Assembly: GCA_003021235.1 (NCBI GenBank)
Contig: PXQR01000111.1
Location: forward strand, 27,454-80,342
Source of the DNA: Halobacteriales archaeon QH_6_64_20
GTDB lineage: Archaea > Halobacteriota > Halobacteria > Halobacteriales > Halococcaceae
DNA: 52,889 bases
Direction of reading: 5' to 3'
In this document: positions 4,977-21,364 of the stretch, one piece after another
Layout: each line of letters opens with the position of its first letter
How positions within the stretch are numbered: position 1 is the first letter of the stretch
The notes under the pieces: generated by a model
The model's database searches: none
Seen by the model: only the letters and a program-made list of their open reading frames with translations
What the model was told of the DNA's origin: nothing
Translations under genes and position numbers: made by a program

Positions 4977-5575
4977 CTACCGGGGCCGCGCGACGACCGC
5001 GAGGTGATCGGCGTGAAACGGCTCTAAGGACCGGGTATCGAGGACTTCGTAGCTCTCGCGCAGATCGGCGAGCACGCCTTCGAGTTGTCGCGCAGGAACC
5101 GCCGGTTCGCCCGTGCAACGCGGGCCTGCCCGCGGGTTGCGACGTCCTGGACGATCGCGTCGACCGGCTCGACGACGTGCCCGTAGGTTTCGGGTTGCCG
5201 GGCGTCTTTGAGCAACGGAAAGAGGTTCGGGCGCTCCTCGGCGACACCCACGAGATCGCGGGTCGGCCGGGCGGCGAACTCGACGGCGTACACGGCGTTA
5301 GAGAAGTCGGCGACGTGGCTCGCGGTCGTTCCCGACGCCGCGCCGAGGTACAGCACCTTCTCGTCGCCCGCGAGCCTGAGATCCAGCCCCTGCTCGTACA
5401 TCGCGCCGACCTTCGATCGTCGGGCGTCCCAGAGACGCCACTCGCCACTGCTCGGCTCGCCGTAGACGGGTGCGCCCCGCGTCGCGAGCCTCGATTCGCC
5501 GTCGAATCCCCGATAGGTGACACCCGCCGGAAGGGGAGGTGAATCCCTCGACGCGCCATCGTTATCGTCGCTCAC
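4977..5575 (-). pseudogene. flpA: fibrillarin-like rRNA/tRNA 2'-O-methyltransferase with internal deletion and frameshift
   Basis: N-part PPLPAGVTYRGFDGESRLATRGAPVYGE...VLYLGAASGTTASHVADF...VEPVDAIVQDVATRGQARVARANRRFLRD. C-part LEGVLADLRESYEVLDTRSLEPFHADHLAVVARPR* is in another frame, junction about 5083-5092. GTG start overlaps the nop5 stop. Confidence 0.8.
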
Positions 5576-6441
5576 GATCGCGACTCGCCTCCTCCCCGCT
5601 CGTCGCGCGCCCGAATGCGTTCGATACGCGCGTCGAGCTCGTCGTCGAGTTCGGGACGGCGATCGCCGGAGTAGTAGTCGACCCGGGCGGCGATGGTCAA
5701 CTTGCCCGCGAGCGCCCGGGCGGCCGACCCACGATGCTCTCGGCTCGTGCCGCGGACGTACTCGTGGGTGTAGATGATCCCGTGTTTCGGCGACGGGGCC
5801 TGCCCGCGTAGGTGGGCGAACAGGGCCTCTTCGGCACCCAAGACCTGGAGGGTGCCGCTCGGCTTTCGCGCGAGGGGCTTCAGCCCGCCGGCGAGCGCGA
5901 TCAGCCGCGCCGCGAGCACCGGTCCCGCCAGTGCCGCGAGGTTCGGCGCGACGTCCCCTGCTACGCGCTCGACGAACGCCCGGAGCCGGATAGCCTCCTC
6001 GTCGAGCGCGACGACCCGGGCGGCGAGGTCGATCAGCCGTTCGTCCGCCGGCTCTCGGGGATCGCGCTCGGCGACCGTGCGGGCACCCTCGATACCCGGC
6101 TCGGCCGCCTCGAACCGGCTTCCGGCCCACTCGGCGACCCGTTCGGCGAGTTCGTTCGCAGTACGGTCGGCGTCGTCCATCGCTCGAACGGCGTGGATCA
6201 GTTGCTGATCGTCCGCACGCTCGCGCTCCGTGGCCGCCGCGCGGGCTGTTCCACGAGTCGCCGCGCCGAGCGCGTCGTAGTACTTTGCTTCGCTCGCGAC
6301 GAACCCGGACTCGACGGCGAGCGCGGGCCACTCTCGGGGCATGTCGGCCGCCCTCGACTCGATGGCGTTCCGGGCGGCCTCGGTGTCCCCCCGATCCAGG
6401 CCGTCGAACCACCCCTCGTGTTCGCTCGTTCGCTCGGTCAT
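5572..6441 (-). CDS. NOP5/NOP56 family C/D-box RNP protein
   Basis: MTERTSEHEGWFDGLDRG...KPSGTLQVLGAEEALFAHLRGQAPSPKHGIIYTHEYVRG...RGSAARALAGKLTIAARVDYYSGD. Confidence 0.88.
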   Translation of the reverse strand: MTERTSEHEGWFDGLDRGDTEAARNAIESRAADMPREWPALAVESGFVASEAKYYDALGAATRGTARAAATERERADDQQLIHAVRAMDDADRTANELAERVAEWAGSRFEAAEPGIEGARTVAERDPREPADERLIDLAARVVALDEEAIRLRAFVERVAGDVAPNLAALAGPVLAARLIALAGGLKPLARKPSGTLQVLGAEEALFAHLRGQAPSPKHGIIYTHEYVRGTSREHRGSAARALAGKLTIAARVDYYSGDRRPELDDELDARIERIRARDERGGGESRS

Positions 6442-6636
6442 ATACTGCTTCGACGGCGAACTCCCATAGCCGTTCCCAACGCTGCCGGGGACCCACAATC
6501 GAACGCCCCTCGTCGATAGCTCGCCGGGGCCTCCCTTCGAGTCGGGTTAGGCTCCTCGCGTCGAACCAGCAGCAAACCCCGGTACCGTGGCCGAGAGACG
6601 CGGGATACTTGCCTCCGTGTCCGATAGACCGCGATC

Positions 6637-11872: not shown

Positions 11873-12646
11873 ATGGTATCCGTGACGAACACCCAGATCA
11901 CCCTCGTTCAGATCGACAACTACGGGCCGTGGACGGTCACCCCCGAGCCCCGGCGGGAGGTCGACCTCCAGACGTTGCAGTCACGGCTGTACGCCGATCT
12001 CGCCCAACTCATCGGTACCAGGGAGGGCTACGTGTTTTTCACCCGCTTCGACAACATCGTCGCGGTCACCAACGGCCTCGACATGGAGGCCCACGGCCTG
12101 TTCCAGGAGTCGATCGCGAACCGGTATCCGGTGACGGTGAGCCTGAGCGTCGCGACGGACGAAACCCCCGCAGAGGCGCTCCGAACGGCCTCCGAACGCC
12201 TCCAGCGTGCCGGTAGCGCTCAGGACGCCGGCCGCCAGGAGATCCTGCGCGGTCAGGTGGTCGGCGAACCCGCCCGTACCGAAGGGGACCTGCAGATGGC
12301 ACACTTCGACGTCAACGACGCCACCGGTAAGTACACTGATCGACTAAGCGAGTACGACACCTTTGTTCACATTCAGCAGGGTTACTCCGAACTCATGCAA
12401 TACATGTACGAAGCGCACGATTCGCTGTCGTTTTTCGTCGGCGGGGACAACATCATTACCACGTGTCCGGCCCTCGACGCCGACGCCTACTGGGACGCGA
12501 TCGAACACGTCCGCGGGACCGTCGACGTCGAACTCAAGGTCGGTGTCGGTCGCGGGCGGAGCGCCCAGCGAGCCGGCATGGCCGCCAAACACGCTCTGGA
12601 GGTCTGTCGGGACGGCGGCGACGAGGTCGAACTCGCCGTCGACTGA
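11873..12646 (+). CDS. gch3: GTP cyclohydrolase III (IIa)
   Basis: TQITLVQIDNYGPWTVTPEPRREVDLQTLQSRLYADLAQLIGTREGYVFFTRFDNIVAVTNGLDMEAH...FFVGGDNIITTCP. Confidence 0.92.
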   Translation: MVSVTNTQITLVQIDNYGPWTVTPEPRREVDLQTLQSRLYADLAQLIGTREGYVFFTRFDNIVAVTNGLDMEAHGLFQESIANRYPVTVSLSVATDETPAEALRTASERLQRAGSAQDAGRQEILRGQVVGEPARTEGDLQMAHFDVNDATGKYTDRLSEYDTFVHIQQGYSELMQYMYEAHDSLSFFVGGDNIITTCPALDADAYWDAIEHVRGTVDVELKVGVGRGRSAQRAGMAAKHALEVCRDGGDEVELAVD

Positions 12647-12890
12647 TTTCGACCGATCGGCACTCTCTACAACGGCAGGCGCCCACGTCCCCTATCGTCG
12701 GGAAAGGCGGTGGCTCGGTCACACCACCCGAACGATCCGTCCCGAGAACGGAGCAATCGCCCTCGGGTGAGCGGTTCGAACGGATCGACGGGGGCCGATA
12801 CGATATAGATAACCAGCAGATTACGATTCGAGCGGTCTTAACCCTTGTTGACGTAGTTTTTAGTCGGTGTACGTTCTGTTGGTACGCATG

Positions 12891-13448
12891 AACGCCGATG
12901 TAAGCGTCAGAGAGGTGATGAACAGGGAATTCGTCGGCGTGAGCGAGTCCGACTCCGTAGCGTCGACCGCCCGTCTCATGCTCGAAGAAGACGCCGACTG
13001 TGCCGTTGCGCTCCGCGGGGACGATCCCGTAGGGATGATAACCGTACGCGACGTGCTCTCGTCGGCTTTGGATAAAAGCGACGTCGAAGCGGCGACGATC
13101 GCCGACGTCATGCGGGCGGTCCCGTCGGTCCGTTCCGACCGCGACGTTGCGATGGCGACCGATCGTCTCATTGCGGCGGACGTCCCCGGGGTGGTCGTGA
13201 TCGACGACGGTAGCGCCGAACCGGTCGGATTGGTGACCTACCGTGACGTCGCGACGACGCTCACCCACTCGCTGCGATCTCCGAACGAACCGTACGACAG
13301 CGTGGAGACGTTCCCGACCGGCACGAACGGCTTCGAAATCGAACGGGACAGCGAGTTCCAGAGCGTCTGTGAGTCGTGTGGTACCCTCTCGCGCTCGCTT
13401 TCGGCCGTCGACGGGCAGTTGCTCTGTTCGAACTGTCGGGACGTCTGA
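12891..13448 (+). CDS. CBS-domain pair protein with C-terminal zinc ribbon
   Basis: SVREVMNREFVGVSESDSVASTARLMLEEDADCAVALRGDDPVGMITVRDVL...VPGVVVIDDGSAEPVGLVTYRDV...CESCGTLSRSLSAVDGQLLCSNCRDV; start near 12889-12891. Confidence 0.85.
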   Translation, partial: NADVSVREVMNREFVGVSESDSVASTARLMLEEDADCAVALRGDDPVGMITVRDVLSSALDKSDVEAATIADVMRAVPSVRSDRDVAMATDRLIAADVPGVVVIDDGSAEPVGLVTYRDVATTLTHSLRSPNEPYDSVETFPTGTNGFEIERDSEFQSVCESCGTLSRSLSAVDGQLLCSNCRDV

Positions 13449-13616
13449 TCGTCCCGGAGCGTTCGGCCACCCGGCTATCCGGCCACCCGACCACCCGGCC
13501 ACTCAACCGATCGCCGGACCGGACGAACACGGGAGGTTGCTCGGCCTCGAACGCTTGAATCGCGTTCGATGCCCGGGGCAGATTTATAAGGCGAAGCCAC
13601 AAACACCTCGTCGGAC

Positions 13617-15002
13617 ATGGTACGGAAGATCAAGCGCCGGGACTTCCTCGCGGGAGCCGGTGCGGCGGGTATCACTACGGCAGCCGGTTGCATCGGAAGC
13701 CCCGACGGCGGCGGTGACGGCGGTGGCGGGAGCACCGGGACGAGCACGAACGGCGGGAGCGAAAACACCGAAGCCAGTACGGACAGTGGTGGCGGGAGCG
13801 GTGACGGGCCCGGATTGCTCGTCGTTATCGGTTACCCCGAGAGCGGGATCCAGCTGTTTCGCGATTACTACAGCAGGGCCACTACCGACGAGGACATCCT
13901 GGTTCCCGACGGCCTCCGCGACGGGGACTTGCCGAACCAGGTCGGCAACGACATGAACAACGTTGTCGGAACGGCACCCGCTTCGGGCGGGCCGAACCAA
14001 CAGAGCTTCACCCAGCTCTTCCAGCAGCAATACGACAGCGCCCCGAGCGTCTTTACCTCCCAGTCGTACGATTCGGTCGCGACGCTCATCCTCGCGAACG
14101 TCGCGGCGGGCGAGAACAGCGGCCCGGCGATCCGCTCGCAGATGCGAAACGTCGTGAACCCGCCCGGAACCGATATCGGACCCGAAAACCTCGTCGAAGG
14201 GGTCCGGATGGTCGCCAACGGCGAGGACATCAACTATCAGGGCGCATCGAGTACCGTGAACTTCGACGAGAACGGCGACCCGGCGTCGGCAGCGTATGCC
14301 ATCTGGGAGTTCGCCCGCCAGCAGAACGCGGCCGAGACGCTCAGCACCGAGACATTCGAGAGCGATAGCCCCGACGGAACCGGTCCGTCGGCGGACTCCG
14401 TTTCCGGTAGCTCGATGGATCGGACAGTGCAGGTCGGCATCCTGTTACCCGAGACGGGTGACCTCGCGTCGGTCGGCGGCCCGATGATCCAGGCCGCACA
14501 GATCCCACCGATGCAGGTGAACGACTCGGATCTCGGCCTTACGGTCGACGCCCAGGTACAAGACACCCAGACCCAGCCGGAAGCGGGCATCAGCGGCGCT
14601 GAAGCGCTCGTCAATGACGGCGTTCCCGCAGTGTGTGGCACCGCTTCCTCGGGCGTGAACGTTCCCGTTTCTCAGGAGGTGTTCATCCCGAACGAAATCG
14701 TCGGGTGCTCGCCCTCCAGTACGGCGCTCAACGTCTCGACTTTGGAGGATGACGACTTCATCTTCCGGACGGCACCATCCGACTTCCTGCAGGGGCGCGT
14801 GATGGCTCAGGTCGGCACCGACCGGTTGGGCACGACCAGTGCTGCGACGCTGTTCGTCAACAACGAGTACGGTCAGCAGCTCTCGAATCGGTTCGCAGAA
14901 GTCTATCAGAGCGAGTTCGGTGGCCAGGTATCCCAGCAGGTCGCGTTCAACATCGGGGAGTCGTCCTATACCTCGGTGATCGAACAAGCCCTCTCGGCGT
15001 AG
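13617..15002 (+). CDS. LivJ-type (Peripla_BP_6) ABC transporter substrate-binding lipoprotein, circularly permuted domain order
   Basis: Tat/lipobox signal MVRKIKRRDFLAGAGAAGITTAAGCIG; linker; GLLVVIGYPESGIQLFRDYY...AIWEFARQ; linker; RTVQVGILLPETGDLASVGGPM...SYTSVIEQALSA*. The C-half precedes the N-half of a canonical type-I PBP. Confidence 0.88.
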   Translation: MVRKIKRRDFLAGAGAAGITTAAGCIGSPDGGGDGGGGSTGTSTNGGSENTEASTDSGGGSGDGPGLLVVIGYPESGIQLFRDYYSRATTDEDILVPDGLRDGDLPNQVGNDMNNVVGTAPASGGPNQQSFTQLFQQQYDSAPSVFTSQSYDSVATLILANVAAGENSGPAIRSQMRNVVNPPGTDIGPENLVEGVRMVANGEDINYQGASSTVNFDENGDPASAAYAIWEFARQQNAAETLSTETFESDSPDGTGPSADSVSGSSMDRTVQVGILLPETGDLASVGGPMIQAAQIPPMQVNDSDLGLTVDAQVQDTQTQPEAGISGAEALVNDGVPAVCGTASSGVNVPVSQEVFIPNEIVGCSPSSTALNVSTLEDDDFIFRTAPSDFLQGRVMAQVGTDRLGTTSAATLFVNNEYGQQLSNRFAEVYQSEFGGQVSQQVAFNIGESSYTSVIEQALSA

Positions 15003-15059
15003 GAATCGAATCCCGCTGTCCTCGTCGCCGGCTCCGAACCGTTTTGTCCCGTGATCGTT

Positions 15060-15574
15060 CCTACTCGGAGTCGGTAGCGAGATCACCCGCGACCGCATCG
15101 AGCACCACGACGGTCAGTCGGTGGGTGCCGACGAGAACGATCACGGCCCACGACGACGATCGCGACCTCGCGAGGTGTCGAGAGCAATCCCAAGGCGACG
15201 ATGAGCGTCGTTGCACAGGCCGGCGCATGGATCGCGTCGGCCCGAATCATACCCCATCCCGTGAGCGCGATCGAGAGTACGGCGCTCGCTGCTAGCCTGA
15301 CTCCAGCGGGCGAAAACGCTGGGAACGGCCCGGTGATCGTAACGCCGGTCGCGAGACTCGAGTAAGCGACGAACCCGGCGACGGCCTCGATACAGTGAGC
15401 GCCGACGATCCGGAACGGACGAGCGCGATCCCCGTTCGGTTCGAGCGCGAGGACGAACGCCGACGGTCCGAGGCTCGGGAAGACGAACGGCTGGCCGCTC
15501 GCCTACGTAAGGAGGCCTACCACGGCGATCAGCGACGCCGCGCGAACGCTGGTCGCTATCCGTCCACCGCTCAT
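15060..15574 (-). pseudogene. HPP-family membrane protein remnant with in-frame TAG and a downstream frameshift
   Basis: MSGGRIATSVRAASLIAVVGLLT*ASGQPFVFPSLGPSAFVLALEPNGDRARPFRIVGAHCIEAVAGFVAYSSL...AGVRLAASAVLSIALTGWGMIRADAIHAPACATTLIVALGLLSTPREVAIVVVG, then frameshift to AVIVLVGTHRLTVVVLDAVAGDLATDSE*. Confidence 0.75.
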
Positions 15575-15623
15575 ACGAGTCGTCGCCGAGCGACGTACGG
15601 GATCGTGTGCCTCCCGGCAGCGC

Positions 15624-16448
15624 TCAGCCGCCGAGGAACTCCCGACGGACCTCCTCGTCGTCGAGCAGTGTCCGTCCCGAGTCGACGAACCGGTTGCGCC
15701 CCTGGACGAACACGTACCCGCGATCACAGCGCCGCAACGCCTCCTTTGCGTTCTGTTCGACCATCAAGATTGCAGTGCCGCTCTCGTTGATCTCGTCGAT
15801 CTTATCGAACATCTCGTCTACCAGATCCGGTGCGAGTCCTGCCGAGGGTTCGTCGAGTAACAGGAGATCGGGTTCGAGCATGAGCGCTCTGCCCATCGCG
15901 AGCATCTGTCGCTGACCACCGCTCATGGTGCCGGCTTTCTGGTCGCGGCGTTCGTCGAGGATCGGAAACCGCTCGTAGACTTCCCTCAAAGCCTCGTCGG
16001 GCACGTCGTCGAGGATGTACGCGCCCATCGCCAAGTTCTCGGCGACCGAGAGGCTCGTGAAGACGTTGCCGTTCTGCGGGACGTAGCCTAGTCCTTCGTG
16101 GATGATCTCCTCGGGATTCCGGCCGGTGATGTCGGTCCCGCCGAAGGTGATCGACCCACTCATGTAGGTCGCGAGCCCGAAGACCGACTTCATGACGGTA
16201 GACTTTCCCGCTCCATTAGGGCCGACGACGGTGACGTACTCGCCCTCGGTGACGTCCAGGTGGACGTCGTAGAGGATCTGGAGATCGCCGTAGCCGGCGT
16301 CCAACTCGCGGACGGCGAGCAGGGACTCCTCGGCGTCCATGCGCGGCGTGTCGGCGGTCGATCGAATTCCCCGCTCGCCGTCGGTCGCCGCAGCGGTGTC
16401 GCCGCCGGCGTTCGCAGGGTGTTCGCCGGCCGATTCGCTCTCGCTCAT
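15624..16448 (-). CDS. livF: branched-chain amino acid-type ABC transporter ATP-binding protein (LivF-like)
   Basis: VVGPNGAGKSTVMKSVFGL...MSGGQRQMLAMGRALMLEPDLLLLDEPSAGLAP. Confidence 0.9.
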   Translation of the reverse strand: MSESESAGEHPANAGGDTAAATDGERGIRSTADTPRMDAEESLLAVRELDAGYGDLQILYDVHLDVTEGEYVTVVGPNGAGKSTVMKSVFGLATYMSGSITFGGTDITGRNPEEIIHEGLGYVPQNGNVFTSLSVAENLAMGAYILDDVPDEALREVYERFPILDERRDQKAGTMSGGQRQMLAMGRALMLEPDLLLLDEPSAGLAPDLVDEMFDKIDEINESGTAILMVEQNAKEALRRCDRGYVFVQGRNRFVDSGRTLLDDEEVRREFLGG

Positions 16449-17395
16449 ACGGTGCCCCCGAGGTAGGCGTCGATGACCTGCTCGTCCTCCAAGATCGCCT
16501 CGGGTGCGTCGTCAGCGAGCACTCTGCCCTGGTGCATGACGATCACGCGCTCGCAGTTGTCCATGATGAGGTCCATGTCGTGTTCGACGATCAGGAACGT
16601 ATATCCCTCCTCGCGCAGTTCGTGGATATGAGAGAGGAGGCGCTTTTCGAGGGTGGGATTCACCCCGGCGAACGGCTCGTCGAGAAGTAGCATATCGGGA
16701 TCGGTCGAGAGCGCGCGGGCGAACTCAAGTAGCTTACGTTGCCCCCCCGAGAGGTTGCCGGCGTCCTCGTGGGCGAGATGGGAAATATCGAAGAAGTCGA
16801 GCGTGTCCCACACTTGGGTGAGGAGTTCGCCTTCCTCGCGGCGAATACCACGGCGGGCAAATGGAAGTACCGATCGCCAAAGCGACTCGCCTGATTGGTG
16901 CTGGGGGGCAAGCATAACGTTTTCGAGCACGGTCATATCCGCGAGCTGGCGAGCGATCTGGAAGGTCCTCACCAGCCCCTTGCGTGCGGTTGCGTGAGGG
17001 GGCAGGCCCGTAACGTCCTCACCGTTGAAATACACGCTACCGCTATCGAGTGCGATCGTGCCCGTGATAAGGTCGAACGTCGTTGATTTGCCTGCGCCGT
17101 TCGGGCCGATAAGCCCCGTAAGCGATCCCGATTCGACGTCGAAGCTCGCGCCGTCGACTGCGGTGATACCACCGAAACTCTTGTGTAAGTCATCGACACG
17201 AAGGGGTGTCTCGGTCAACGACGCCGTCTCGGAGATCGTCTCCGATTCAGTTGCGGCCGTCGTTCCCTCGATTCGCTCGGCGTTCGCTTCGCTGTCGGCC
17301 CGACTCGCCGAACCCGTTTCGGTTTCGGTCCCGGTTTTCGTCTCGGCCTCGGCGCTGGTCTCGACATCGGCTTCGGCTTCGGTCTCACCCATCAC
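16445..17395 (-). CDS. livG: branched-chain amino acid-type ABC transporter ATP-binding protein (LivG-like) with Glu/Thr-rich N-terminal extension
   Basis: LHKSFGGITAVDGASFDVESGSLTGLIGPNGAGKSTTFDLITG...LSGGQRKLLEFARALSTDPDMLLLDEPFAGVNP. Confidence 0.9.
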   Translation of the reverse strand: MMGETEAEADVETSAEAETKTGTETETGSASRADSEANAERIEGTTAATESETISETASLTETPLRVDDLHKSFGGITAVDGASFDVESGSLTGLIGPNGAGKSTTFDLITGTIALDSGSVYFNGEDVTGLPPHATARKGLVRTFQIARQLADMTVLENVMLAPQHQSGESLWRSVLPFARRGIRREEGELLTQVWDTLDFFDISHLAHEDAGNLSGGQRKLLEFARALSTDPDMLLLDEPFAGVNPTLEKRLLSHIHELREEGYTFLIVEHDMDLIMDNCERVIVMHQGRVLADDAPEAILEDEQVIDAYLGGTV

Positions 17396-18839
17396 TCCGT
17401 CCTCCGTCGGCCGCCGTTGCCGGCGTCGAATCCGATCGCGTCTCCCGACGCTCGGGTCGCGAGAGGTCGATCGTTGAGGCGGTCTCGGTGCGATGACCCA
17501 TCAGTCCCTCCGGTCGATTCTTCATGATCAGGACTAGTACGACACCCATGATGACGAGCCGAAGGGTGGACATGTTGTCGAGCGTGAAGGCAATTAGGGG
17601 GATGACGTCGAGCGCCGAGAGCAGCGGCGAAAGAGCCTCGCCGAACGTCGTGGGTGCGTTCCCGACCGGAAACGCTCTGACGACGAGGTTCCTGAAGTAA
17701 AGCGGCCCCTCGAAGAGCACCGCAGCGAAGACCGCCCCACCGATCACGCTACCCGTATTCGAGCCCGCGCCGCCGATGATGAGCGCGATCCAGACGAAGA
17801 AGGTGATCTGTGGGCGAAAGGAAAGCGGCGTTACGGCCCCTTGGCCCATGTACCAGAGGATCCCCCCGAGACCCATGAGCGCACAGCCGAGCATGAACGA
17901 CTTGATCTTGAAGCGGTTCGTGTTCTTTCCGAGCGAACTCGTGGCGTCTTCGTCCTCGCGGATCGCCTTGAGCACCCGGCCGAACGGCGACTCGCCGGTT
18001 CGTTTGAGCAACCAGTAGAAACCCGCGACGAAGCCCATGAGCAGCGCGGCGTAGACGAACTGGTTGACGACGGGTGCGGGGTTGTTCGGGATAACCGTAC
18101 TGACGGCGCCCACCAGACCGTCGTAGACCTCTGAGAGCCCCAGGAAGGCGAGCAACGCGGCGAGCGGGTCGGCGTAGTTGAGGATCAGTCCGCTACCGCC
18201 GCCGGTACCGAGCTGTGCGCCGAACAGAGTGAACTCTTGAAACTGGCCCGACATGTAGATGAAACGGACGATCTCGCTCATTGCGATCGTGACGATCGCG
18301 AGGTAATCGGCCCGCAGGCGAAGGGCCGGCAGGGCAACGAGGAGACCCAACAGGGTGGCGACGACCACCCCGGCGATGATGCCGACCCAGATGGGTAGTC
18401 CCAAGCCGGGGACCTGGGCGGAACCGCCGGTGCCCACGGGCTTCGAGACCATCGCCATCGTATAGATACCGACGGCCATGAACCCGACGACGCCGATGTT
18501 GAAGAGGCCAGTGTAGCCCCAGTGGAGGTTGAGCGCGAGCGCGAGCATCGAGAAGACCCCGATGAGGAAGGTCAATCTGGCGACGACGTTGATGAGTCCT
18601 CTAGCTTCGAAGCCGAGTGCGAGCCCGGCGAGCAAGTAGGCGAGATAGATCCCGCCGATCACGGCGAGGATGAGCGTTATGTCCCGGTCGAAGAACGATC
18701 CGACGGTGTCGCCGGTGCCGGTTCCCTCATTGTCGGGACCGGCACTCGCCGAGTCGCCCCGTTCGACCGAGGGCGTTTCCTGATCGGTCTCGCCGCCGGC
18801 GGCGATGGTATCGGCGTCGCCGTCCGGACTCGTGCTCAT
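17385..18839 (-). CDS. livM: branched-chain amino acid-type ABC transporter permease (LivM-like)
   Basis: ALALNLHWGYTGLFNIGVVGFMAVGIYT...RLRADYLAIVTIAMSEIVRF...FGRVLKAIREDEDATSSLGKNTNRFKIKSFMLGCALMGLGGILW. Confidence 0.9.
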   Translation of the reverse strand: MSTSPDGDADTIAAGGETDQETPSVERGDSASAGPDNEGTGTGDTVGSFFDRDITLILAVIGGIYLAYLLAGLALGFEARGLINVVARLTFLIGVFSMLALALNLHWGYTGLFNIGVVGFMAVGIYTMAMVSKPVGTGGSAQVPGLGLPIWVGIIAGVVVATLLGLLVALPALRLRADYLAIVTIAMSEIVRFIYMSGQFQEFTLFGAQLGTGGGSGLILNYADPLAALLAFLGLSEVYDGLVGAVSTVIPNNPAPVVNQFVYAALLMGFVAGFYWLLKRTGESPFGRVLKAIREDEDATSSLGKNTNRFKIKSFMLGCALMGLGGILWYMGQGAVTPLSFRPQITFFVWIALIIGGAGSNTGSVIGGAVFAAVLFEGPLYFRNLVVRAFPVGNAPTTFGEALSPLLSALDVIPLIAFTLDNMSTLRLVIMGVVLVLIMKNRPEGLMGHRTETASTIDLSRPERRETRSDSTPATAADGGRSDG

Positions 18840-19948
18840 GCGGTGGACCTCCCCTGGAACAGTCCCTCCGGACGGAATATCAGTACGAGGATCATTACGA
18901 GAAAGGCCGCCGCCCGCGCGAAGTCGGACGGTATCCAGAGCACCGACAGCGAACTCGTCAGGCCGATCACGAGCCCACCGATGATCGCACCATAGACCGA
19001 CCCGATCCCGCCGAGGATCACCGCCGCGAAGACGAGCAGGAGAAGCAACCAGCCGTCGTTGAATCCGATGGTCCCCTTCCAGAGCACGAACATGTAGCCC
19101 GCGACGCCGGTGAGCGCGCCGCCGATAACCCAGGTGGCACGGACGACGCGTTCGGTCGGGATGCCGGTTACCCGTGCCAGGTCCTCGTTGTCGGCCATCG
19201 CGCGCATCGCGGTGCCAAGCTTCGTCCGCTGGAGTAGGAAATGCACGCTCAGCATCAAGCCCACGGCGACGACGAGCAGAGTGGCGTCGTGGGCGCTTAC
19301 CGTGACGAACCCGTCGAGGAGATAGCCCCGGACCTCGGGGACACCGCCGGCGTCGGTCACGCCGCGGTTCTCGGTCGTGAAGACGAAGGCGATCAGGTAC
19401 CTGAGTGCGAAGGCGACGCCGACGCTCGCGATCAGAAGCGAGATGCCCTCCTGATCGCGCATCGACCGGTAGACGAGCCGATCGATGACGAGTGCGAGCA
19501 CGACGGCGAACAGACCCGCGATAACGAGCCCGCCGAGCACGGCAACGGGCGTCGCCGTGACGCCGATGCCGAGCGCCCCGCCGAAGACCGACCCGCCGGC
19601 ACCGATCAGGAGGAGCGAGCCGACGTCCGCGCGGCCGAGACCTGCTAACAGATAGGTCACTGCCCAGCCGGAAAACGCGCCGCCCGTGATGTAATCGCCG
19701 TGCGCGAAGTTCGCGAAGTTCAGAATGCTATACGTCATCGAGAGGCCGATCCCCGCGAGTCCGACGACGAGGCCCTGCATGAGCCCATCCCAGACGAGCG
19801 TGGCGACGTCCGAAACCGCGATCCGTCCGGTCGCCAACCCGTCGACGAAATCGACGGCCAACAGTATTACCAGGAGGCCGACGACGAGCGCGAAGGGCCG
19901 GTCGACGACGTATCGTCGTCCGTCCGAGTACGTGTCTGCTATTCCCAT
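18836..19948 (-). CDS. livH: branched-chain amino acid-type ABC transporter permease (LivH-like)
   Basis: GLMQGLVVGLAGIGLSMTYSILNFANFAHGDYITGGAFSGW...RTKLGTAMRAMADNEDLARVTGIPTERVV...GSVYGAIIGGLVIGL. Confidence 0.9.
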   Translation of the reverse strand: MGIADTYSDGRRYVVDRPFALVVGLLVILLAVDFVDGLATGRIAVSDVATLVWDGLMQGLVVGLAGIGLSMTYSILNFANFAHGDYITGGAFSGWAVTYLLAGLGRADVGSLLLIGAGGSVFGGALGIGVTATPVAVLGGLVIAGLFAVVLALVIDRLVYRSMRDQEGISLLIASVGVAFALRYLIAFVFTTENRGVTDAGGVPEVRGYLLDGFVTVSAHDATLLVVAVGLMLSVHFLLQRTKLGTAMRAMADNEDLARVTGIPTERVVRATWVIGGALTGVAGYMFVLWKGTIGFNDGWLLLLLVFAAVILGGIGSVYGAIIGGLVIGLTSSLSVLWIPSDFARAAAFLVMILVLIFRPEGLFQGRSTA

Positions 19949-20179
19949 TGAAACCGCACCTTACCAGCAAGCGGTCGGGCGAGTAGAATAAACCTTCGCC
20001 AGTGCGCGGCGGGAATACGGTCCCTAAATCGGACCGAGTCGGATCGATGAGGCGAGCAGGACAACGGGACCAACGGATCAGCAGGGTCAACAGTGCCGAC
20101 GGTGCCGGCGGACGGATACAGTCGCCGATCCGGTCGTGGGACGGAAAGGAATTTGATAGGCCGTCCCGGATTCGGGACA

Positions 20180-21364
20180 ATGGTTCGAACCCTCGACGAC
20201 CTCGCGCTCGACGGGGTCACCGTCGGGGTGCGTATCGACGTCAACAGCCCGCTTTCGGGCGGGGAGCTCGCCGACGACGCCCGACTGCGCGCGCACGTCG
20301 ACACCCTCGAGGAGCTACTCGACCGCGGGGGGCGCGTCGCAGTGCTCGCCCACCAGGGCCGACCCGGCGGCGAGGATTTCTCCTCGCTCTCGCCCCATGC
20401 CGCCCGCTTGGACGAGTTGCTGGAGTTTCCGGTATCCTACACCGACGCGCTCTGGTCGGCGGACGCACGCGAACGGATCGCGGCGCTCTCGCCAGGGGAA
20501 GCGCTCGTACTGGAAAACACCCGGTTTTACGCCGAGGAGTACATGGAACTGTCCCCCGAACGGAGCGCCCGGACCCATCTGGTCGAACGCCTCGCCCCTG
20601 CGTTCGGCGCCTTCGTCAACGACGCGTTCGCCGCCGCCCATCGCTCCCAGCCCTCCTTGGTCGGCTTTCCCCAGGTCGTACCGGGGTATGCCGGTCGCGT
20701 GATGGAACGCGAACTCGATGTCTTGGGAACGGTCGCCGAAACGCCGACGCCACGGGTCTACGTGCTCGGCGGCACGAAGGTCGGCGACTCGATCGCGGTC
20801 GCGCGAAGCGTGCTCGAACGCGGCCTCGCCGATCGGATCCTCACTACCGGCGTCGTCGGGAACGTTTTCCTGCTCGCCGACGGCGTCGAGCTCGGAACGC
20901 CGAGTGCGGAGTTCATCTACGAAGGAGGCTACTTCGACGAGATCGACGCGGCGAGCGATCTCTTGGAGAGCTATGAGGTAATCGAACTCCCGACCGACGT
21001 CGCGGTCGACCGTGACGGCGAGCGCGAGGAGGTCTCGGTAGGCGACCTGCCGGCCGACGCACCCGCCAAAGACGTCGGCAGTGAGACGATCGCGGGCTAC
21101 TCGCTGGTACTCGAAAACGCCGGAACAGTGGTACTAAACGGACCTGCCGGGGTGTTCGAGGAGCCGGCGTTCGCCCGTGGCACCGAGGGGATCTACGAGG
21201 CGGCGACGCGGGCGACTCACAGCATCGTCGGCGGCGGCGACACCGCGGCAGCGCTCCGTCGATTGGGACTCACGGGCTTCGATCACGTGAGCACCGGCGG
21301 CGGGGCGGCGCTTCGGATGCTCACCGACGAACAAATGCCCGCCGTCGAGGCACTCCGGCAGTGA
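20180..21364 (+). CDS. pgk: phosphoglycerate kinase
   Basis: VTVGVRIDVNSPL...VAVLAHQGRPGGEDFSSLSPHAARL...VLENTRFYAEE...FVNDAFAAAHRSQPSLVGFP...VLNGPAGVFE...SIVGGGDTAAALRRLG...STGGGAALRML. Confidence 0.95.
   Translation: MVRTLDDLALDGVTVGVRIDVNSPLSGGELADDARLRAHVDTLEELLDRGGRVAVLAHQGRPGGEDFSSLSPHAARLDELLEFPVSYTDALWSADARERIAALSPGEALVLENTRFYAEEYMELSPERSARTHLVERLAPAFGAFVNDAFAAAHRSQPSLVGFPQVVPGYAGRVMERELDVLGTVAETPTPRVYVLGGTKVGDSIAVARSVLERGLADRILTTGVVGNVFLLADGVELGTPSAEFIYEGGYFDEIDAASDLLESYEVIELPTDVAVDRDGEREEVSVGDLPADAPAKDVGSETIAGYSLVLENAGTVVLNGPAGVFEEPAFARGTEGIYEAATRATHSIVGGGDTAAALRRLGLTGFDHVSTGGGAALRMLTDEQMPAVEALRQ

Follow-up and report, generated by a model that had tools for sequence, protein, structure and literature searches.

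A natural circular permutant of a LivJ-type solute-binding lipoprotein at a conserved transporter locus of haloarchaea

The window, which is the whole stretch of 52,889 nucleotides analysed here, encodes a solute-binding protein (SBP) that is a circular permutant of the Peripla_BP_6 (LivJ-type) family. It is very likely that this protein is a natural permutant of the SBP serving a LivFGMH transporter, that it has kept its fold, and that the new order arose in place, probably on more than one occasion. Natural circular permutations are usually recognised long afterwards, when only distant relatives are left and the path has gone unrecorded. Here, the canonical and the permuted orthologues are about 50% identical, they share the same locus and the same pump, and the order of the chain has apparently been switched repeatedly at one loop.

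Results

The features of the gene and of its neighbours are given in Table 1. The open reading frame has no internal stop codon and, as the earlier note on this DNA had stated of its two halves, it is read through as a single protein. The order signal peptide, tether, C half, linker and N half will be hereafter referred to as type 1, or C-N1-N2.

Table 1 Position of the SBP gene, its segments and its neighbours in the window.
Feature	Position	Strand	Basis or remark
GTP cyclohydrolase III	11873..12646	+	PF05165; in conserved synteny
CBS-domain protein, upstream	12867..13448	+	PF00571; in conserved synteny
Circularly permuted LivJ-type solute-binding lipoprotein (SBP), ORF	13617..15002	+	461 aa; signal, tether, C half, linker, N half (type 1 order)
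Tat-type signal peptide MVRKIKRRDFLAGAGAAGITTAAGC with lipobox-like Cys25	13617..13691	+	Sequence and profile matches
Gly/Ser/Asp-rich tether, aa 26-64	13692..13808	+	Sequence
C half, aa 65-248, equal to the second half of an ordinary SBP; begins PGLLVVIGYPESG	13809..14360	+	Peripla_BP_6 190-311, ANF_receptor 232-352
New linker, aa 249-267, from old C terminus to old mature N terminus	14361..14417	+	Missing from canonical orthologues
N1, canonical N-lobe strand 1 and helix 1 (DRTVQVGILLPETGDLASVGG...)	14418..14522	+	Pfam and comparison of relatives
N2, remainder of the canonical first half; ends ...SSYTSVIEQALSA at the canonical helix-to-strand loop	14523..14999	+	
livF, ATPase	15624..16448	-	PF00005; arrangement same in relatives
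livG, ATPase	16445..17395	-	PF00005 and PF12399
livM, permease	17385..18839	-	PF02653
livH, permease	18836..19948	-	PF02653

The Tat/lipobox signal noticed earlier is found in the profile search, where TIGR01409 scores 16.8 bits (cut-off 16.7), and in the lipobox-like Cys25, which sits in the motif TAAGC; the Pfam family TAT_signal scores 19.2 bits, under its cut-off of 22.7. The twin arginine is present in 99 of 99 type-1 relatives and the lipobox-like cysteine in 94 of them. With both elements, the window SBP would qualify as an archaeal Tat lipoprotein, exported by Tat and anchored via Cys25. The tether measures 9 to 46 residues among the type-1 relatives (median 26), and the linker measures about 17-21 residues in most of them.

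The halves of the window SBP are in the order C-N, because Pfam places positions 190-311 of Peripla_BP_6 (residues ~65-180 of the SBP) before positions 1-188 (residues 270-460). The C half was located by a Pfam test of the separate stretch 13803-14360. Each half is also detected on its own, and the E-value of 4.1e-20 obtained with Peripla_BP_6 for the N half alone rules out a chance similarity of this second half. When the chain is rotated to the order N-C, a single Pfam match runs from 1 to 311 with 107.7 bits, compared with 93 bits in two stretches for the native order. Likewise, the rotated protein aligns to LivK of T. maritima (3TD9) in one stretch, residues 14-320, with an E-value of 5.5e-18, against 1.1e-13 for the native protein. 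Joining the two ends was expected in the earlier note to restore a canonical type I binding protein, and this continuous match is what the rotated chain gives.

Canonical orthologues are present in many haloarchaea and are about 40-60% identical to the permuted protein in each half. In these orthologues, the residue that ends the permuted protein is followed within a few residues by the one that begins it. The canonical junction reads ...SYTSxLExALAxxPDLLVVIGYPxSG..., while permuted proteins start with (x)PDxLxVIGYP and end with SYTSxIExALSx, so that the break falls in a helix-to-strand loop. The alignment offset to the leucine-binding protein of E. coli (2LBP) is near-constant, and together with the lobe boundaries known for LIVBP it places the break in lobe 2. 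The linker, which the canonical orthologues lack, runs from ETxxFEG, the old C terminus, to xRxVxVGILLPETGDL, the old N terminus of the mature protein. There is one breakpoint, just before the residues PD, and the linker sequences are lineage-specific. The permuted chain begins at the lobe-2 strand that normally comes after the helix ...SYTSxLExAL, continues through an ordinary C-terminal half and the linker, and finishes with an ordinary N-terminal half. The claim of a C-N order behind a kept signal peptide is therefore borne out by the sequence, by close canonical orthologues and by the structure prediction described below.

Two sets of trees bear on the number of permutation events. The SBP trees, which have moderate support, were built on rotated sequences, with 78 and 76 rows in two tests. 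They contain a large clade A, which includes the window SBP (100/100), and they nest the B2 permutants among the canonical proteins of loci L088, L190, L230 and L079 (98/98, whole set); the L126 group and the single L115 are placed apart from clade A. A single clade of all permuted proteins, a group defined by topology, is rejected under the tests run, with p_AU of 0.0049 (78 rows) and 0.0197 (76 rows). An independent test, which rotation does not affect, is a tree of the LivFGMH proteins encoded next to the SBP at 61 loci. In this tree, whose genes may carry their own transfer history, one permuted clade is rejected with ΔlnL 196 and p 4.6e-29, and clade A together with B2 is rejected with p 7.6e-4; B2 joins the canonical L230 (100/99) and L126 joins the canonical L168 (100/90). 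Trees of the N half and of the C half both group the B2 permutants with the same four canonical proteins. For subsets chosen after the tree was seen, the AU test on the SBP alone does not reject a union of clade A with B2 (p 0.107) or with the L126 group (p 0.303), and L115 fits equally well inside clade A or apart from it. The number of events is consequently not fixed by these non-significant pairwise tests.

Since the outgroups are canonical, the permuted order is derived. The permuted proteins form no single clade, they have different linkers and they share one breakpoint, and hence the permutation probably recurred in situ, at the same loop, within the haloarchaea. The trees most probably reflect two to four independent events. 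We lean, by a little, towards a more specific account in which C-N1-N2 arose independently three or more times, always at one loop and one locus and with one transporter, with two secondary rotations to N2-C-N1 in addition. A single permutation, after which reversions to the canonical order or horizontal spread took place, would make the multiple origins a product of tree error or transfer. This is unlikely. It agrees with the pairwise SBP tests, with the identical break, with linkers that are mostly 17-22 residues long everywhere, and with the clade-A-like linker of L115. However, the all-permuted clade is rejected in both the SBP and the transporter trees, which concur on the placement of B2, and the linkers of B2 and of the L126 group have no evident sequence in common with that of clade A. 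Moreover, any reversion would need to rebuild the canonical loop and remove every sign of the linker.

The secondary rotations concern a second topology, N2-C-linker-N1, which was found in three genomes, G389, G381 and G311 (loci L218, with the gene at 5161-6492, L219 and L220). The chain starts after helix 1 of the N lobe and the canonical N2-C loop is present again; a clade-A-type linker comes next, and the strand and helix of N1 form the end. Both trees put these type-2 genes inside the type-1 clade, with that of G389 beside L145-L147 (99/99 and 100/100) and that of G311 elsewhere. The simplest account is therefore that a gene of type-1 order was rotated a second time, possibly on two occasions; a single origin of the two type-2 lineages is not rejected by the SBP AU test (p 0.302). 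The end (..VNGEI, stop) and the start (..GSEIGL..) of the protein in G389 and G381 share a short overlap, which would fit a duplication with later trimming, although so short an overlap is not proof.

Tandem pairs of type-1 SBP genes are seen at L030 (4332-7269), L134 (6180-8992) and L135 (5999-8830); in each pair, one copy has the lipobox cysteine and a Gly-rich tether, and the other has neither. Because such tandem copies exist at three loci, permutation by duplication is the favoured mechanism. A canonical orthologue would have been converted to the permuted form at its own locus, most likely through a tandem duplication and deletions, and in a few lineages the permuted gene would have been rotated again to N2-C-N1. 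The duplication and fusion put forward in the earlier note is thus plausible in view of the tandem copies, but a duplicated N-C-N-C intermediate was found at none of the retrieved loci. Matches past the stop codon of the canonical genes of G086 and G322 were considered as a half-duplicated intermediate and rejected, as there is no second N1 there.

The genomic context of the permuted gene is that of its canonical orthologues. The common order is GTP cyclohydrolase III, CBS protein, SBP and the convergent livF-livG-livM-livH, often with phosphoglycerate kinase. In the window, the series that includes the kinase spans 11873-21364, and it recurs across many haloarchaeal families. The transporter genes had been described as divergently encoded; in fact livFGMH lies on the reverse strand, tail to tail with the SBP gene. 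Canonical genes (L217, L228) and permuted genes (L013, L030, L136 and others) lie in an identical neighbourhood, from which it follows that it was the SBP gene of a single importer that became permuted, without leaving its locus.

By its adjacency to livF, livG, livM and livH, the SBP would be a component of an ABC importer of the branched-chain amino acid type (HAAT). If fold and pocket are kept, as proposed here, the ligand is most likely still a branched-chain amino acid or a similar one, which the protein captures and passes on to LivHM. An alignment to Atu2422 shows that the window SBP has an alanine where the F77A mutant (3IPC, solved with leucine) has its alanine, which would be compatible with a branched-chain ligand and proves nothing. 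Fifty-two alignment columns reach 90% conservation or more in each of the four groups compared, namely the canonical proteins, clade A, B2 and the L126 group. The only conserved column that differs is 371, which is proline in the canonical, B2 and L126 groups and leucine in clade A, to which the window SBP belongs. That the permutation came with a switch of ligand specificity, a possibility raised in the earlier note, is quite improbable: nothing was found in its favour beyond the change of topology itself, whereas these conserved columns and the unchanged locus and LivFGMH partner speak against it.

The native permuted chain was modelled with AlphaFold2, with a pLDDT of 95.7 and a pTM of 0.92, and the linker is included in the model as an ordered segment. 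The alignment had 102 rows, made of 46 full-length type-1 permutants, with the window SBP among them, and of canonical halves, each in a row of its own. When the alignment was shallow and contained just 11 close permutants, the pLDDT was only 57. The model supports a complete type I fold in the permuted chain, which was the outcome that the earlier note had asked AlphaFold to check. A Foldseek search with the model matched structures of LivK, LIVBP and LivJ, and the SBP matches spanned only about 190 columns, that is, one half. Foldseek aligns in sequence order, and half-length matches are therefore expected of a permutant; among the best 50 matches, no solved structure superposes on the whole chain.

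In the proposed structure, the three-dimensional fold and the pocket would be kept despite the exchanged halves. The amino acid would be captured between two lobes that are rebuilt from these halves, and the closed form would dock on LivHM. The lipid tether would enter lobe 2, and not lobe 1. It is reasonable to infer that the hinge is changed as well, with the linker adding a fourth crossing between the lobes as it does in TpMglB-2. Alternatively, the halves might not be reassembled within one chain, and the protein would be a domain-swapped dimer or two linked half-proteins with another role. This is very improbable. The sequential structure search matched halves only, and the fold is known from prediction; yet the monomer model is confident, the canonical elements are all present, the locus and the transporter are identical to those of the canonical orthologues, and TpMglB-2 shows that a permuted type I SBP can function as a monomer (PMC4990184).

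The distribution of the permuted order was studied in several collections. A scan of 84,980 species genomes gave 22 haloarchaeal loci with the same C-N order, among them loci on two complete chromosomes, that of Halostella pelagica (CP040678.1) and that of Haladaptatus halobius (NZ_CP085335.1). About 170 of 394 sampled haloarchaeal genomes had a best match with an E-value of 1e-85 or less, a prevalence that rests on E-values for the weaker rows (those with E-values above about 1e-110; a subset was searched again). Nearly all strong rows listed in this search are collinear over the whole mature protein, and the order C-N1-N2 was seen in 88-99 distinct retrieved proteins. In all, well over a hundred related genomes have the orthologues of permuted order that the earlier note had proposed to look for, and such conservation excludes chance as the cause of the exchanged order. 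In the 197 genomes that sample the phylum beyond this class, the observed matches covered the halves separately, and the proteins retrieved had the canonical order. Cyanobacterial relatives were considered as further permutants and rejected, having the canonical order. In the plasmid collection, all matches were below 60% identity, with the best ones in two pieces. The genome that contains the window is fragmented into 152 contigs, but an assembly error, frameshift or chimera is virtually excluded, since the same order, with a conserved linker and at high identity, recurs in many isolate genomes and in independent complete ones.

Discussion

The closest known system is TpMglB-2 (Tp0684) of Treponema pallidum, a "Type Ic / Cluster Bc" SBP in which the first ~100 residues of E. 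coli MglB have become the last 100 (Brautigam 2016, PMC4990184). TpMglB-2 is monomeric, binds glucose and changes its conformation on binding (PMC4990184). Like the window SBP, it is a natural circular permutant of a type I SBP that is tethered by a lipid. However, TpMglB-2 belongs to the bacterial sugar-binding MglB family and its break is in the N lobe, whereas the window SBP belongs to the archaeal LivJ family and its break is in the middle of lobe 2, with about 195 residues moved. By this measure the window SBP would not be a member of Type Ic by descent, although it probably works like TpMglB-2. The fourth lobe crossing is present in TpMglB-2; for the window SBP it would follow from the observed order and from the linker that is ordered in the model. 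A further difference from TpMglB-2 is that closely related canonical orthologues of the window SBP occupy the same locus, and that its family includes a second, derived topology. Brautigam and colleagues suggested that the permutation of TpMglB-2 is an adaptation to tethering (PMC4990184). In the haloarchaeal family, five type-1 members have no lipobox cysteine, and tethering cannot therefore be the sole use of the new order and is at most part of the reason for it. When compared with canonical LivJ, LivK and LIVBP (3TD9, 1Z15, 4GNR; PF13458, Peripla_BP_6), the window SBP has all of their elements and is adjoined by livFGMH, but its halves are exchanged, its linker is new and its tether would be on lobe 2.

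The permuted classes of DNA methyltransferases and of saposins/swaposins are old and divergent. These natural circular permutations have been explained by permutation by duplication, and permutation intermediates are documented for the DNA methyltransferases (review, PMC3320104). In contrast to both, the present family has canonical, once-permuted and apparently twice-permuted orthologues at one syntenic locus within one class of organisms. Our search, made in an open-access library that lacks most subscription papers, brought up no description of a permuted LivJ or of a permuted haloarchaeal SBP.

One gene family thus appears to record a repeated rewiring of the chain order, with fold and pump apparently unchanged. 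It makes testable whether a permutation is neutral or selected, why one breakpoint recurs and which intermediates evolution uses, as well as whether it matters to a Venus-flytrap protein that its lipid tether is moved from one lobe to the other. If serial permutation is true, nature would have run an evolution experiment with this family, whose canonical, once-permuted and twice-permuted orthologues exist side by side. Routine annotation can label such permutants as ordinary substrate-binding proteins, and the order of the chain is then overlooked.

Incomplete or displaced copies of the gene were also observed. The start of a contig from a Rhodospirillales metagenome-assembled genome (L047, 1-189) carries the end of a C half and a linker of clade-A type, and is probably haloarchaeal contamination. 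In G318, a second type-1 copy (L141, 17340-19157) has lost its C-terminal end in masked sequence. A truncated type-1 copy with the C half and N1 only is found in G353 (L223, 5813-6489), whose genome also has canonical copies. The type-1 gene of G065 (L221, 4268-6865) looks disrupted, with its N2 segment split by other sequence over about 1.4 kb, and the edges of the interruption show a short repeat of coding sequence.
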